Of a stretch of 60,590 nt of DNA, positions 3,976-52,430 are shown in pieces. The DNA comes from Chitinophagaceae bacterium. GTDB taxonomy: Bacteria > Bacteroidota > Bacteroidia > Chitinophagales > REEL01. The position numbers and the translations under genes were made by a program. Within the stretch, counting starts at the first letter, position 1. The number at the start of each line of letters is the position of its first letter. The stretch covers positions 1-60,590 of the forward strand of contig REEL01000071.1 of NCBI GenBank assembly GCA_007695095.1, written 5' to 3'. The notes below the pieces were generated by a model that ran no database searches, was not told where the DNA came from, and worked only from the letters and a program-made list of their open reading frames with translations.

Positions 3976-5649
3976 ATGTTTAAAAGGTTTCAACTAAGCT
4001 ACTTTCTGAGTCTTACTTATCTTTTTTTTGGCCTTATATGGATTTATTTTTCAGACAGGTTTCTATTGTCAATAGTAGAAACGGATAATGGAGAATTGAT
4101 TACAACCTTACAGTCCTATAAAGGATATGGATTTGTATTAGTAAGTACATTAGTTTTGTTTGTTCTTTCCGATTACCTGACAAAAACGCTTAGGGAAAGT
4201 AAAAAAAGTTATGAAGATTTATTCAAATTAAATCCTTTGTATACCTGGTTGGTCGATCAGAATACAAATAAGATTTTATTATGTAACGATGCTGCTATTG
4301 AAAAATACGGATATACAAAAGAAGAGTTTAAACAGCTGCATTATGATGAAATAGTGTACGAATCTGACTTATATAACCAGACTGAAACTCATTTGCAAAA
4401 AGATGGAAGCAAATCTCATGTTGAAGTAATAACCAAGCCTGCACAATATGAAAATAAAGAGGTGCTTATAGTTATTGCAAAAGACATCACAGAGAAGTTA
4501 GAATTGAATAAACGGATAAAGGACAAAAATGTAGAATTGGCAAAGTTTAAAAATGCAATTAGTAATTCCTCTTTGGTTTCAATTTGTGATGAAAAAGGAA
4601 TTATAACAGAAGCAAACAAAAAATTTGCCGATGTAAGCAAATACTCTCTTGAAGAGCTTATAGGTAAGCCATACAATATTCTTAATTCCGGCTATCATGA
4701 CAAAAGTTTTTTTAAAGACCTATGGACTACGATTTCTTCCGGAAAAGCCTGGAGAGGGGAAATATGTAATCGTACAAAAGACGGAGAGATTTATTGGGTT
4801 GACACAAATATTTTTCCTTTCGTCAACAAAGAAGGCAAAATCTATGAATACTTAAGTATTCGAAATGAAATAACAGAGAAAAAAGAGTTTCAGGAGAAGC
4901 TTTTGAAAATTAATAAAAAGCTTGATGCTGAGGTGATTCAAAGGACGAAAGAGCTTCAAATGGCTAATGAAAACTTAAAGTCTTTTAACTCAAGTCTTTC
5001 GTTTGATTTACAGAAACCAATTGTTGAAAGCATAAAAAATCTGGAATCTTTGAATAAAAACATAAGTGATAAATTAAATGAAAAAGACAAAAGTGATATA
5101 AAAAATGTTTTTTATTTTTTAAATAACGCACAAGCCCAAATTCTCAATTTAATGGCCTTTTCTATCATGGGAAATCATGAAAAACGTATTCAAAATCTGG
5201 ATATGAATAAGATTGTAAACAATGCACTTAGTGAGCTTAAAGCAACTGAATTTCGCTTTTCTGAACACAAAATCGACGTTAAAGATTTGCCGGAAGGTTT
5301 AGGTGATGAAAAAATGATAGATCAGGTTGTTCGGGTTCTCCTTTCAAATGCATTAAAATTTTCAGCCAAAAAAGAAAACCCTATAATAGAAGTAGGGTGT
5401 TACATCAATCAAGAAAATTCGGAATGTATTTACTTTTTAAAAGATAACGGAATTGGAATTGAAAAAAGCAATCAAGACAAAATCTTTAATGGAATAATTA
5501 GCAAGACAGAACAAGAGAATTTTAGTGGAAATGGTGTTGGGCTCGCCATTGCAGATAGAATTATTATGAGACATGGCGGCAAAATATGGTTAGAATCCGA
5601 AATAAATGAAGGCTCTACTTTTTATTTTAGCTTACCCTGTGTAGAATAA
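3976..5649 (+). CDS. PAS-domain sensor kinase lacking the H-box histidine
   Basis: This 557-residue protein is built like a membrane sensor histidine kinase. Two transmembrane helices (about 8-30 and 48-68) flank a short external loop. Two PAS domains follow (about 78-180 and 190-310), then a coiled-coil linker, a dimerisation domain and a HATPase_c domain (about 420-557). The ATP-binding boxes look intact: the N box LLSNALKF, G1 DNGIGI and G2 GNGVGLA. In the phospho-acceptor motif, where relatives read SHDL, this protein reads SFDL; the codon at 5002-5004 is TTT, so residue 343 is Phe. No nearby His can replace it. Autophosphorylation at the usual site should be impossible. No response regulator is adjacent, so it may modulate another kinase or act as an ATP-dependent sensor. 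Confidence 0.85.
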   Translation: MFKRFQLSYFLSLTYLFFGLIWIYFSDRFLLSIVETDNGELITTLQSYKGYGFVLVSTLVLFVLSDYLTKTLRESKKSYEDLFKLNPLYTWLVDQNTNKILLCNDAAIEKYGYTKEEFKQLHYDEIVYESDLYNQTETHLQKDGSKSHVEVITKPAQYENKEVLIVIAKDITEKLELNKRIKDKNVELAKFKNAISNSSLVSICDEKGIITEANKKFADVSKYSLEELIGKPYNILNSGYHDKSFFKDLWTTISSGKAWRGEICNRTKDGEIYWVDTNIFPFVNKEGKIYEYLSIRNEITEKKEFQEKLLKINKKLDAEVIQRTKELQMANENLKSFNSSLSFDLQKPIVESIKNLESLNKNISDKLNEKDKSDIKNVFYFLNNAQAQILNLMAFSIMGNHEKRIQNLDMNKIVNNALSELKATEFRFSEHKIDVKDLPEGLGDEKMIDQVVRVLLSNALKFSAKKENPIIEVGCYINQENSECIYFLKDNGIGIEKSNQDKIFNGIISKTEQENFSGNGVGLAIADRIIMRHGGKIWLESEINEGSTFYFSLPCVE

Positions 5650-48067: not shown

Positions 48068-49441
48068 TCAATTGTTTTCAGAAAAATAATTTTCCCATTC
48101 CCGGAGCAAAGTATTTACGGCCTCATCGCTTTCCGGATTTTTTAAAGAGGATTTTTTAAAGATTTTTTCAAAGAAAGCATCCTGTAGCTTTCCGGTTCTA
48201 AGAGCCGCCGAATAAGGGATATGATCGGCAAAAGTAACCATACTGTAAAGCGGTATATATAAATCAGGGAAACGTTGATGTAATATATTTTCGATTTTTT
48301 TACGGAACAGAAAGCGTTCATCTGCAACCTTATCCCGCATTTCAATAAAGTTTCTCAAAGCCAGTTCAGCTATAGCGTCTCCATTTGGTTTTCGTTCCCC
48401 CTGATATTTTTGTAACAATTCAGGGATACTTAAATCTTCCTGCAATAAATCATTTAATACCCGACAATCCTCAAATCCGGCATTCATACCTTGTCCGTAA
48501 AAAGGAACTATAGCATGGGCAGCATCTCCTATCAGAGCCACTTTATTATCAAAAACCCAGGGTGAACATTTAATGGTGACTAATGAAGAAGTTGGGTTTT
48601 TAAGAAACTGATCTTCTAAATCCGGTATGAGCGGCACTACATCCGGAAACCAACGATTAAAAAAACGGCTGATATCTTCTTTGGTATTTAAGTGTTCAAA
48701 AGCCTGTTCTCCTTTGTAGGGTAAAAATAATGTACAAGTAAAAGAGCCGTCAGTATTTGGTAAGGCTATTAGCATAAAGCTTTTTCTGGGCCATATATGC
48801 AAGGCTTCTTTTTTTATTTTCCAAGTTCCATCATCAGCCGGAGGCATGGCTAATTCTTTATAACCATGTTCTAAAAATTGCTGACTATAATTAAACCGAT
48901 CTGTTTTTTGTAAATTATATCTGATAGCCGAGTATGCTCCGTCGGCTCCGAAAATTAAGTCGGAAGAAGTCAGGGTTTCTTCGTCACTTTGAGTGTCTGT
49001 AAAGGTAATTTCTCCTTTTTGAGGATTTATGTCAGTGCATCTTTTATTAAAATGTAAATTTACATTTTCGTACTTTTCAGCCTCTTCAAGTAAAATTTGA
49101 TTTATCCTTCCTCTGGAAACTGAATATATTGATTGCCCCTCTAAACCATAAGGCTGGAAGTTTTCTACTCCTTTTTCATCATGAACCTGCCGTCCATGCA
49201 TTGGTATAGCAATGTCTTTTACTGCCTTTTCTACGCCGGCGGCTCTGAGGCCTTTCCAGCCCCTTTCGCTTAATGCCAGATTAATAGAACGCCCGGCTGA
49301 AATTTTTACTTTGCGTATATCCGGTCTGCTTTCATACATGTTTATTTTAAAGCCTTTGCGTGCAAGTATCGTAGTGCATAAAGAGCCTACTAATCCCCCA
49401 CCCACCACTGTCGTTTTTATATCATTGTAATTTTTCTTCAT
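48068..49441 (-). CDS. kmo: Kynurenine 3-monooxygenase
   Basis: This 457-residue FAD enzyme hydroxylates L-kynurenine to 3-hydroxykynurenine with NADPH and O2. The N-terminal FAD motif VVGGGLVGS (12-20) and the second FAD motif GDAAHAIVPFYGQGMNAG are present. The order with kynureninase, ACMS decarboxylase and 3-hydroxyanthranilate dioxygenase makes the assignment firm over other aromatic hydroxylases. The C-terminus is soluble with no membrane helix visible. It is the last gene of the operon, 61 bp after kynU. Confidence 0.94.
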   Translation of the reverse strand: MKKNYNDIKTTVVGGGLVGSLCTTILARKGFKINMYESRPDIRKVKISAGRSINLALSERGWKGLRAAGVEKAVKDIAIPMHGRQVHDEKGVENFQPYGLEGQSIYSVSRGRINQILLEEAEKYENVNLHFNKRCTDINPQKGEITFTDTQSDEETLTSSDLIFGADGAYSAIRYNLQKTDRFNYSQQFLEHGYKELAMPPADDGTWKIKKEALHIWPRKSFMLIALPNTDGSFTCTLFLPYKGEQAFEHLNTKEDISRFFNRWFPDVVPLIPDLEDQFLKNPTSSLVTIKCSPWVFDNKVALIGDAAHAIVPFYGQGMNAGFEDCRVLNDLLQEDLSIPELLQKYQGERKPNGDAIAELALRNFIEMRDKVADERFLFRKKIENILHQRFPDLYIPLYSMVTFADHIPYSAALRTGKLQDAFFEKIFKKSSLKNPESDEAVNTLLREWENYFSENN

Positions 49442-49502
49442 CGAATAAAAGTTTTAAAATAAAGAGTGTTCGTTTGTTTTTGTTCAAAAAGCGAAAAGAT
49501 CT

Positions 49503-50780
49503 TTACCGATAAATTTTATGACATGCTTCATTTAACAAAACACCAAATTGATAGACATCTGAAAAAGAATTGTATAGAGGCACAGGTGCCAGCCTGATTA
49601 CATCAGGTTCCCGCCAGTCAGCAATTAGCCCACCCTTTTTCATTTCGTCAAATATTTCCCGCCCTCTGTCTTTTGCCAGAATAGATAACTGACAACCTCT
49701 GGATTCTTTTTCAGGGGGAGTAATCAGATTGAATTTCCCGGAAAATTTTCTTTCTGTTTCAGTTATTATAAAGGCCATATAGGCTGTCAATTGTTCGCTT
49801 TTCTTTCTTAATTTTAAGATTCCAGCTTTTTGAAAAATTTCCAATGAAGCTTTTTGGGCTGCCATACTTAATACCGGGGCATTGCTCAGTTGCCAGGCTC
49901 CTGCTCCTTTTTGAGGAACAAATTGCTTTTCCATTTTAAAGCGGGTTTCTTCATCTGTGCCCCACCATCCGTTGAATCGTTTTAATTGATTGTTTTCATG
50001 ATGTTTTTCATGCACAAAAATGCCGCTACACCCACCCGGTCCGCTATTCAGATACTTGTAGGAACACCAGGTTGCAAAATCTACATCCCACTCGTTTAGC
50101 TTAAGAGGAACATTCCCTATCGCATGTGCTAAATCAAGCCCAAAAGTTATGTTGTTTGCAGAAGCAACTTCTGATATTTTTTTGTGGTCGTAGTAATGAC
50201 CGCTATAATAATTAACACCGGATAATAAAATCAGTGCCAGCTCATCTTTATGCTTTAGTATATTTTGAATGATTTTTTCATTTGCCTCACTTCCATTACA
50301 ATTACTGATATCAACTTCTAGAAGAGCATTTTCATAACCGTGAAAATCAGCTTGGCTTTGAATAGCGAAACGGTCAGACGGAAAAATAGGCGTATCGGTC
50401 AGAACTTTAAATTTATTTTTTCCCGGATTATAAAAAGACACCATCAGCAAGTGCAGATTTACACTGAGGGCGTTCATTGCTGCTACTTCACTTTTTTTTG
50501 CTCCCAATAATTCAGTTAACCCCGGGGTTAAAAAGTGATGATAATAAAACCAGGGATTTTTTGCTTCGAAATGACCTTCAACACCTAATTCTTTCCAGTC
50601 TTTTAGCTCCTGTTGCAAATGAATATCAACAGTTTTGGGTTGCAGTCCTAAACTGTTGCCACAGAAATATAAAGCGTCTTTTTGCTGAATTTTTGGGATG
50701 TAAAATTGCTCTCTGAAGCTTTTTAATTCATCTTTTTTGTCAGCTTCTTCTGCAAAGTTTTTTTCAAATGCGAATTCCAT
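49503..50780 (-). CDS. kynU: Kynureninase
   Basis: This 425-residue PLP enzyme cleaves kynurenine or 3-hydroxykynurenine to anthranilate or 3-hydroxyanthranilate plus alanine. PLP is bound by Lys242 in CSYKYLNSGPGG, with Asp216 and His219 in FGLDLAH. The N-terminal CGNSLGLQPK is also typical. In this operon its product would be 3-hydroxyanthranilate, the substrate of the dioxygenase at 51915. The gene lies 52 bp behind the ACMS decarboxylase gene. Confidence 0.95.
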   Translation of the reverse strand: MEFAFEKNFAEEADKKDELKSFREQFYIPKIQQKDALYFCGNSLGLQPKTVDIHLQQELKDWKELGVEGHFEAKNPWFYYHHFLTPGLTELLGAKKSEVAAMNALSVNLHLLMVSFYNPGKNKFKVLTDTPIFPSDRFAIQSQADFHGYENALLEVDISNCNGSEANEKIIQNILKHKDELALILLSGVNYYSGHYYDHKKISEVASANNITFGLDLAHAIGNVPLKLNEWDVDFATWCSYKYLNSGPGGCSGIFVHEKHHENNQLKRFNGWWGTDEETRFKMEKQFVPQKGAGAWQLSNAPVLSMAAQKASLEIFQKAGILKLRKKSEQLTAYMAFIITETERKFSGKFNLITPPEKESRGCQLSILAKDRGREIFDEMKKGGLIADWREPDVIRLAPVPLYNSFSDVYQFGVLLNEACHKIYR

Positions 50781-50832
50781 ATATTTTTTTGAGCAAAGGT
50801 AATAAGGCTTTTAAGCAAATCAGCAAACATTT

Positions 50833-51903
50833 CTATGAAATGCTTTTATGGTGTTTTTGTAGAAAAACATCAGGCATATAATTTTCCCGAGAAACGCCCA
50901 GCCATTCAAAAGCTGTTAGAGCAAGTAGTTGCTGCTTAACGGAGTCATTAAAAGCACTTTCTTCTATAAGCTTTCCCGGAACGTGTTCTCCAAGCGGGAA
51001 TGGGTAGTCACTGCCTAGACAAAGTTTTTCCGGCCCCATCAAATCCACTAAGTATTCTAAAACTTTTTTATCATGAACAAGGGTGTCCAGATAGAATTTG
51101 TCAAGATACTCTCTGGGGTTTATATTATTATCTACAGCGCATAAGTCCGGACGGGTATTAAAACCATGTTCAATTCTGCCGATAGTTGCAGGAAATGATC
51201 CTCCCCCGTGGGCAAAAGCAACTTTTAGTTTCGGAAATTTTTCAAAAATTCCTCCAAAAATCATAGAGCAAATAGCCAGAGAAGTTTCAGCCGGCATTCC
51301 CACTAACCAGGGCAACCAGTATTTTGGCATTTTTTCAGTGCCCATCATGTCCCAGGGATGTACAAAAACAGATGCTCCGAGCGATTCAGCAGCTTCCCAA
51401 AAAGGGTATAATTCTTCATTTTCAAGATTCCAGTCATTAATGTGAGAACCGATTTCTACACCCCTTAAGCCCAAATCTTCCATACATCTTTTGAGTTCTT
51501 TTGCGGCAAGCTTGGGGTCTTGCATGGGCAGCGTTCCAAGCCCTATAAATCTTTTAGGGTTTTTATCTACAACACTTGCTATATGGTCGTTTAAAAACTT
51601 ACAAACTTCAAGTGTGTCTTTAGGTTTTGCCCAATAGTTAAACAATACCGGTATGGTTGATAAAACCTGAACGTCAACATCAGTATTTTTACAATCCTCA
51701 ACACGACTTGCCGGTTCCCAGCAATTTTGATTTACTTTTCTGAAAAATTTATCGCCAATCATCATATCTGCCTGACAACAATTACTGCTGTGATGCTCTA
51801 AATGTATAAATCCGTCATATCCGAATTTGTCTGCAAATCTGGGGAGATTTTCCGGCATTATATGGGTATGTATATCTACTTTAAAAAACTTTTTTTCTTT
51901 CAT
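50833..51903 (-). CDS. 2-amino-3-carboxymuconate-6-semialdehyde decarboxylase (ACMSD)
   Basis: This 356-residue amidohydrolase-fold enzyme decarboxylates ACMS to 2-aminomuconate semialdehyde, steering it away from spontaneous quinolinate. The zinc ligands appear as His12 and His14 in VDIHTH, a His in FVHPWDMMG, another in AHGGGSFPATIGR and an Asp in GSDYPFPLG. The sequence fits ACMSD better than other decarboxylases of the family, and the operon supports it. Its presence means the operon serves catabolism, not NAD synthesis. The dioxygenase gene lies 11 bp upstream. Confidence 0.93.
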   Translation of the reverse strand: MKEKKFFKVDIHTHIMPENLPRFADKFGYDGFIHLEHHSSNCCQADMMIGDKFFRKVNQNCWEPASRVEDCKNTDVDVQVLSTIPVLFNYWAKPKDTLEVCKFLNDHIASVVDKNPKRFIGLGTLPMQDPKLAAKELKRCMEDLGLRGVEIGSHINDWNLENEELYPFWEAAESLGASVFVHPWDMMGTEKMPKYWLPWLVGMPAETSLAICSMIFGGIFEKFPKLKVAFAHGGGSFPATIGRIEHGFNTRPDLCAVDNNINPREYLDKFYLDTLVHDKKVLEYLVDLMGPEKLCLGSDYPFPLGEHVPGKLIEESAFNDSVKQQLLALTAFEWLGVSRENYMPDVFLQKHHKSIS

Positions 51904-51914
51904 TCCTACTTTTT

Positions 51915-52430
51915 TTAAGGCTTTTCCATTACATGTCCGCAGTTATCACAAGTTCTGCGTTCTTCAGATTCATAAAAGTTTTTCATTACTTTTGGCAACT
52001 GACTTACTATATCCTCCAAAACGAAATACTCTTCATAAAGTAAGTGGTTACAACTTTCACAGTACCATTGAAATCCGTCTTTTTCATTTTTGTTTCTATA
52101 TCTTTCAATGACTAAACCAACAGAGTTAGCCGGTCTTTGAGGAGAGTGAGGCACTTTAGGTGGCAGTAGAAAAATTTCGCCTTCTTTTATTGAGATATCC
52201 TTTGGCTTACCGTTTTCAATAATTCTAAGGACAATATTTCCTTCTAATTGGAAAAAGAATTCTTCCCCTTCATTATAATGAAAATCTTTTCGGGTATTCG
52301 GTCCGCCGACCACCATAACAATAAAGTCATCATTTCCTTTAAAAACCTGCTGATTTCCTACCGGAGGTTTAAGTAGATGTCGATGTTCATCAATCCATGT
52401 TTTAAAATTAAATGGGGCACTTATACTCAT
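51915..52430 (-). CDS. 3-hydroxyanthranilate 3,4-dioxygenase, bacterial type
   Basis: This 171-residue cupin enzyme opens the ring of 3-hydroxyanthranilate to ACMS. The Fe(II) ligands His51, Glu57 and His95 and the substrate arginines Arg47 and Arg99 match the well-studied Cupriavidus enzyme almost residue for residue. A second, rubredoxin-like site is formed by Cys124, Cys127, Cys161 and Cys164, the mark of the bacterial type. It is the first gene of the four-gene operon. No good TAnnTTTG box is visible in the 150 bp upstream, so its promoter is unclear. Confidence 0.95.
   Translation of the reverse strand: MSISAPFNFKTWIDEHRHLLKPPVGNQQVFKGNDDFIVMVVGGPNTRKDFHYNEGEEFFFQLEGNIVLRIIENGKPKDISIKEGEIFLLPPKVPHSPQRPANSVGLVIERYRNKNEKDGFQWYCESCNHLLYEEYFVLEDIVSQLPKVMKNFYESEERRTCDNCGHVMEKP

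Follow-up and report, generated by a model that had tools for sequence, protein, structure and literature searches.

Histidine pseudokinases are few, and most work on them has been done in Caulobacter and Firmicutes. We looked in the literature for surveys of kinases without the H-box His and found nothing directly useful. Among the described systems, DivL of Caulobacter is a pseudo-histidine kinase that carries Tyr550, or Ala in one species, and binds an ATP analogue weakly (PMC4211667). In group A Streptococcus, RocA is an accessory pseudokinase acting on CovS (PMC7028121), and a pseudokinase variant of ChrS is described along with ChrS-HrrS heterodimers (PMC9491836). NifL, a redox and ADP sensor of NifA, acts by contact (PMC8063818, PMC9866876).

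Here we describe P0001, a 557-aa protein encoded on the plus strand at positions 3976..5649 of the window, by which we mean the whole stretch of DNA analysed (60,590 nucleotides from a draft assembly of 186 contigs). The gene is defined by its open reading frame and by Pfam matches to PAS and HATPase_c. P0001 is probably a histidine pseudokinase, a known kind of protein, and is itself undescribed and unusually eroded. An annotation from PAS and HATPase_c matches would label it a working sensor kinase, which is almost certainly wrong.

Loss of the phospho-acceptor His and erosion of the kinase core

Codon 343 of P0001 (5002..5004, plus strand as for all features of the gene) is TTT and places Phe where the phospho-acceptor His is expected (..NSSLSFDLQKPI..). 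The H-box motif SHDL thus reads SFDL, as the initial annotation had pointed out. The comparison set consisted of 129 other DHp-CA domains, drawn both from this genome and from relatives in its order, class and phylum. The acceptor column holds His in 125 of these, Asn in two and Arg in one, and one domain is unaligned. Phe343 thus lies in the correct register, in a column that is so rarely anything but His that the replacement is an exceptional one. A later set of about 60 homologue domains, overlapping in part with the 129, has His wherever the column is covered, save for the Asn protein already known.

The initial annotation had named a nearby phosphorylated His as something that would count against its reading. 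P0001 has His at residues 122, 139, 148, 241, 401, 431 and 533, and none in the DHp helices (residues 300-398), which rules out an alternative phospho-acceptor His inside the DHp domain.

The same annotation held that the N, G1 and G2 boxes are all kept. This is correct for the G1 box (DNGIG, residues 490-494, 5443..5457), for the G2 box (GNGVGL, residues 518-523, 5527..5544) and for the second, Mg-coordinating Asn of the N box (Asn458, AAT, 5347..5349), which is present in 129 of 129 homologues. It does not extend to the first N-box Asn, found in 128 of 129 homologues and replaced in P0001 by Val454 (GTT, 5335..5337). The F box and ATP lid (5494..5502) are eroded as well: Ile507 (ATA) stands in place of a Phe present in 120 of 129 domains, and Ser509 (AGC) in place of an Arg present in 107. 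Residues D490, G492, G494, F504, G518, G520, G522, L523 and P348 are also retained. All four deviations together (343, 454, 507 and 509) occur in P0001 alone among the 130 sequences. With the N box and the F box/ATP lid eroded, the kinase core is generally degenerate, which is more than the swap of one residue.

Pfam detects no HisKA match in P0001, whereas the canonical paralogue of the same genome does match HisKA. The CA domain (residues 443-555, 5302..5640) matches HATPase_c (PF02518, E 9.9e-21) well above the cut-off. A HisKA-type sensor kinase has His in the DHp H box, where P0001 has Phe343; a pseudokinase has the DHp-CA fold minus catalytic residues, and this is the state of P0001, the fold being taken from the structural model described below.

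Domain layout and predicted redox input

From N- to C-terminus, P0001 is composed of a membrane hairpin, PAS1, PAS2, a coiled coil with the DHp hairpin, and CA. The two PAS domains and two membrane helices of the initial annotation were recovered by Pfam and by the model, respectively. The membrane helices lie at residues ~8-32 (SYFLSLTYLFFGLIWIYFSD..) and ~46-68 (GYGFVLVSTLVLFVLSD) as read from the sequence (3997..4179), and at 2-33 and 40-85 with low pLDDT in the AlphaFold model. This N-terminus is homologous to that of other PAS proteins and of a paralogue on contig C76. PAS1 (residues ~78-172, 4207..4491) is defined by a Pfam PAS_8 match at 79-118 and by a PAS fold in the model, and has no solved relative by sequence. 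PAS2 covers residues 199-312 (4570..4911), and the coiled-coil linker and DHp helix hairpin span residues 300-366 and 369-398 (4873..5169) according to the AlphaFold helices.

The model was built from a 35-sequence alignment and has a mean pLDDT of 85.9, low just at the N-terminus, the linkers and the ATP lid, with a full-model pTM of 0.46. Confidence is good for the DHp hairpin and for CA apart from the ATP lid, and the best matches to this core are the true kinase cores of HK853, ZraS and RpBphP2.

By homology (TIGR00229 and NifL models) PAS2 is a redox PAS of the FAD type. Its closest solved proteins are MmoS (3ewk, 9.5e-43), Aer (8dik, 2e-24) and NifL (2gj3, 7e-15), all far beyond any other solved protein, and the pattern W..W.G...NR.K.G..YWV is common to PAS2, MmoS and Aer. 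MmoS is an FAD redox PAS protein. The same is true of NifL and Aer (PMC12540587). We infer that PAS2 senses redox state via a predicted bound FAD.

Comparison with DivL and RocA

Like P0001, DivL combines PAS domains with a DHp-CA fold and has a residue other than His at the acceptor position. Apart from that residue, the motifs of the H, N, G1, F and G2 boxes are preserved in DivL, whereas P0001 combines Phe with eroded N and F boxes; also unlike DivL, P0001 has no DivK- or CckA-like neighbours. The match of its DHp-CA part to the solved DivL structure 4q20 is weak (E 3e-6). We rejected P0001 as a DivL orthologue on the basis of this match, of Phe rather than Tyr or Ala, and of its relatives, which are PAS kinases from the same order and class as P0001.

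RocA resembles P0001 as a membrane sensor with a degenerate core missing several CA residues, and it acts on a canonical kinase. Unlike P0001, it retains the DHp His, which is dispensable (H246A still works), and no PAS or FAD sensor is described for it (PMC7028121).

Relatives and evolution

Orthologues were searched for in samples of about 400 genomes each from the order, class and phylum, the family being represented by this genome alone. Further searches used the DHp-CA part in family f9, the N-terminal part, and a profile of three His-less proteins. No close orthologue and no further Phe-type relative of P0001 was found in those samples, and a named genome collection gave distant matches at most. 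The best relatives, all PAS kinases from within its order and class, carry His, share at most 43% identity and are not orthologues. The closest (L111) is 43% identical over residues 109-554. Together with the paralogue on C76 and MmoS, it has an FAD-type PAS followed by a HisKA/HATPase_c core, as in P0001; L111 and the C76 paralogue differ from P0001 in that they have His as phospho-acceptor and their N and F boxes are intact.

The two Asn-type proteins of the comparison set (L094:3540-5075, FNHTLANNLQHP; L095:2186-3745, FNHTLANGLQKP) are 60% identical and come from two genomes that belong to a single genus of family f18; within this genus, such proteins are found in two of the 14 genomes searched. 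They share with P0001 an acceptor other than His, but have a REC-PAS-DHp-CA architecture and intact N and F boxes. Each gene overlaps that of a canonical PAS kinase, followed by a response-regulator gene, forming a pseudokinase-plus-kinase unit.

In a DHp-CA tree with the catalytic columns masked, P0001 groups with this pair (UFBoot 99, SH-aLRT 90). The grouping is also found in a DHp-only tree; its signal is carried by DHp alone, and it brings long branches together. A CA-only tree separates P0001 from the pair, with a single clade not rejected (AU p 0.228), and a tree without the H-box neighbourhood does not join them. The loss of His in P0001 and in the Asn-type pair may go back to one ancestral event or to separate ones. 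The end branch of P0001 measures 1.07-1.33 changes per column, compared with a median of about 0.6.

A third kind of replacement was seen in the kinase domain of a 1788-aa frame (L108, genome G579), whose acceptor residue is Arg (ASRDLQEP) and whose N box begins with His instead of the first Asn. In the tree, this Arg-type loss is clearly independent.

Among relatives of the N-terminal part, the proteins at loci L183-L195 (mostly family f21) have a P0001-like membrane hairpin and PAS1 and often end in a His-bearing DHp without CA (IAWxxSHExRxP). These CA-less proteins are possibly phosphotransfer or docking proteins of Bacteroidota.

Genomic context and paralogues

The 60-kb window contains no REC domain, although the same receiver model matches 77 proteins in the fetched loci, and no kinase besides P0001. 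Without a response regulator or a second kinase in the window, the P0001 gene is an orphan. Its neighbours encode a bPH_5 membrane protein, an HTH/IrrE-type regulator and an SBP_bac_5 protein, with no NifA-like gene among them.

We read 30 of the 32 HATPase_c matches in the genome. These are two topoisomerase subunits, 26 kinases with the acceptor His, and two proteins without a recognisable one, namely P0001 and a TPR protein on contig C64. Among the paralogues of P0001 the best is a kinase of 737 aa on contig C76, whose SHDL box is normal. Its membrane hairpin, PAS2 and DHp-CA are homologous to those of P0001 (32% identity over the main alignment), and its PAS is very like the FAD-type PAS of P0001.

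The genome also has a two-component cluster on contig C119 (locus L041, genome G000, minus strand). It comprises a complete kinase (1207-aa frame), a response regulator of the Rcp type (157-aa frame) and a 352-aa frame for a REC-PAS-DHp protein (SHVVRAPVAR), which stops once the DHp is complete and lacks CA.

A proposed contact-based model for P0001

As the His is gone, along with three or more further conserved catalytic residues, P0001 most likely signals by protein contact and not by phosphorylation. From the same losses we infer that P0001 is incapable of autophosphorylation. The initial annotation had suggested either a receptor controlling a second kinase through dimerisation or a sensor of the ATP state; a role outside phosphotransfer is strongly supported, while these two specific roles stand as proposals.

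We consider it probable that P0001 is a histidine pseudokinase with redox input through an FAD-type PAS and output by contact with a partner, likeliest as a DHp heterodimer with a canonical kinase. PAS2 would sense redox state by way of bound FAD. ADP or ATP may still occupy the CA domain as a second input: N458, DxGxG and GxGxG, the core of the nucleotide pocket, are kept, as is the predicted DHp-CA fold, and loss of the first Asn and of the lid Arg could weaken nucleotide binding. The conformational state resulting from both inputs would then be relayed to the partner through direct contact, for which DivL, RocA-CovS, the ChrS variant with HrrS and NifL-NifA are precedents. This contact would most likely take the form of a heterodimer, mediated by DHp, with one of the genome's canonical kinases. 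The C76 paralogue would be the prime candidate, as it possesses the His, the same membrane domain with two helices and an FAD-type PAS closely resembling that of P0001. Both this partner and the heterodimer itself are conjecture on our part. A membrane-bound FAD-PAS pseudokinase in a Bacteroidota-type genome that also holds a canonical paralogue would offer a clean test of heterodimer tuning of sensor kinases.

Alternative explanations

The main rival is gene decay, in which a redundant PAS kinase under relaxed selection has recently lost catalytic residues and is turning into a pseudogene. Several independent losses, the long end branch, the lack of an orthologue in the order, class and phylum samples and the many paralogous kinases of the genome are all consistent with it. 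We nonetheless judge decay unlikely: the 557-codon frame is intact, both PAS domains, the DHp hairpin and the nucleotide-pocket motifs are kept, and the losses are limited to phosphotransfer residues, with N458, DxGxG, GxGxG, P348 and the glycines of the second half staying in place.

P0001 could also be a switch in the manner of NifL, directly binding and silencing an effector such as a transcription factor in response to FAD redox state and ADP, with no kinase partner. The order of parts is the same as in NifL (PAS domains including an FAD PAS, an H-like domain and a GHKL domain), 9qq6, the complex of NifL with NifA, is among the structural matches of P0001, and NifL itself acts by contact without kinase activity or phosphotransfer (PMC8063818). 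The match to the NifL model TIGR02938, at 102.3 bits, falls below its cut-off of 242.45, and for this reason, and because no NifA gene adjoins, we rejected membership of the NifL family. NifL further has a conserved H-domain His, two N-terminal PAS domains and a dedicated NifA gene (PMC8063818, PMC12540587, PMC9866876), whereas P0001 has Phe, two membrane helices that are absent from the four NifL domains given in PMC9866876, and as neighbours the bPH_5, HTH/IrrE-type and SBP_bac_5 genes described above. A direct switch of this kind is rather improbable.

Far less credible is a split kinase, in which the CA domain of P0001 would phosphorylate the His of a DHp partner without CA, such as the REC-PAS-DHp protein on C119. 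This same-genome protein bears a His, and many relatives that share the membrane/PAS sensor terminate in a CA-less DHp of this sort; however, the CA domain of P0001 has lost the first Asn, the F-box Phe and the lid Arg, which makes phosphoryl transfer doubtful, and the C119 protein adjoins its own complete kinase and response regulator. We give equally little credence to the broader idea of a Bacteroidota lineage of His-less redox pseudokinases whose CA would cooperate in trans with His-bearing DHp proteins devoid of CA, or else with canonical paralogues. If true, such a lineage would represent a kinase split over two sensor proteins.

Finally, an assembly or sequencing artefact masking a normal His codon has a negligible chance, even in a contig from a draft assembly, given the absence of a HisKA match in Pfam and at least seven base changes from consensus (two each for H343F, N454V and F507I, at least one for R509S) at four separate codons, all of catalytic positions, in an otherwise open frame. 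The initial annotation had argued from the two changes at codon 343 that sequencing error was not involved; this was right and understated, and the full count excludes it.

Other features of the genome and window

The TPR protein on C64 (L148, G000 C64:18791-18946, minus strand) has a HisKA_3-like H box (SRELLEYVKSKL) with apparently Leu for His, and is a possible second pseudokinase in the same genome. Elsewhere in the window, a block of four minus-strand genes at 48068-52430 resembles, by eye, kynurenine 3-monooxygenase, kynureninase, an ACMSD-like amidohydrolase and a 3-hydroxyanthranilate dioxygenase, enzymes of tryptophan catabolism.
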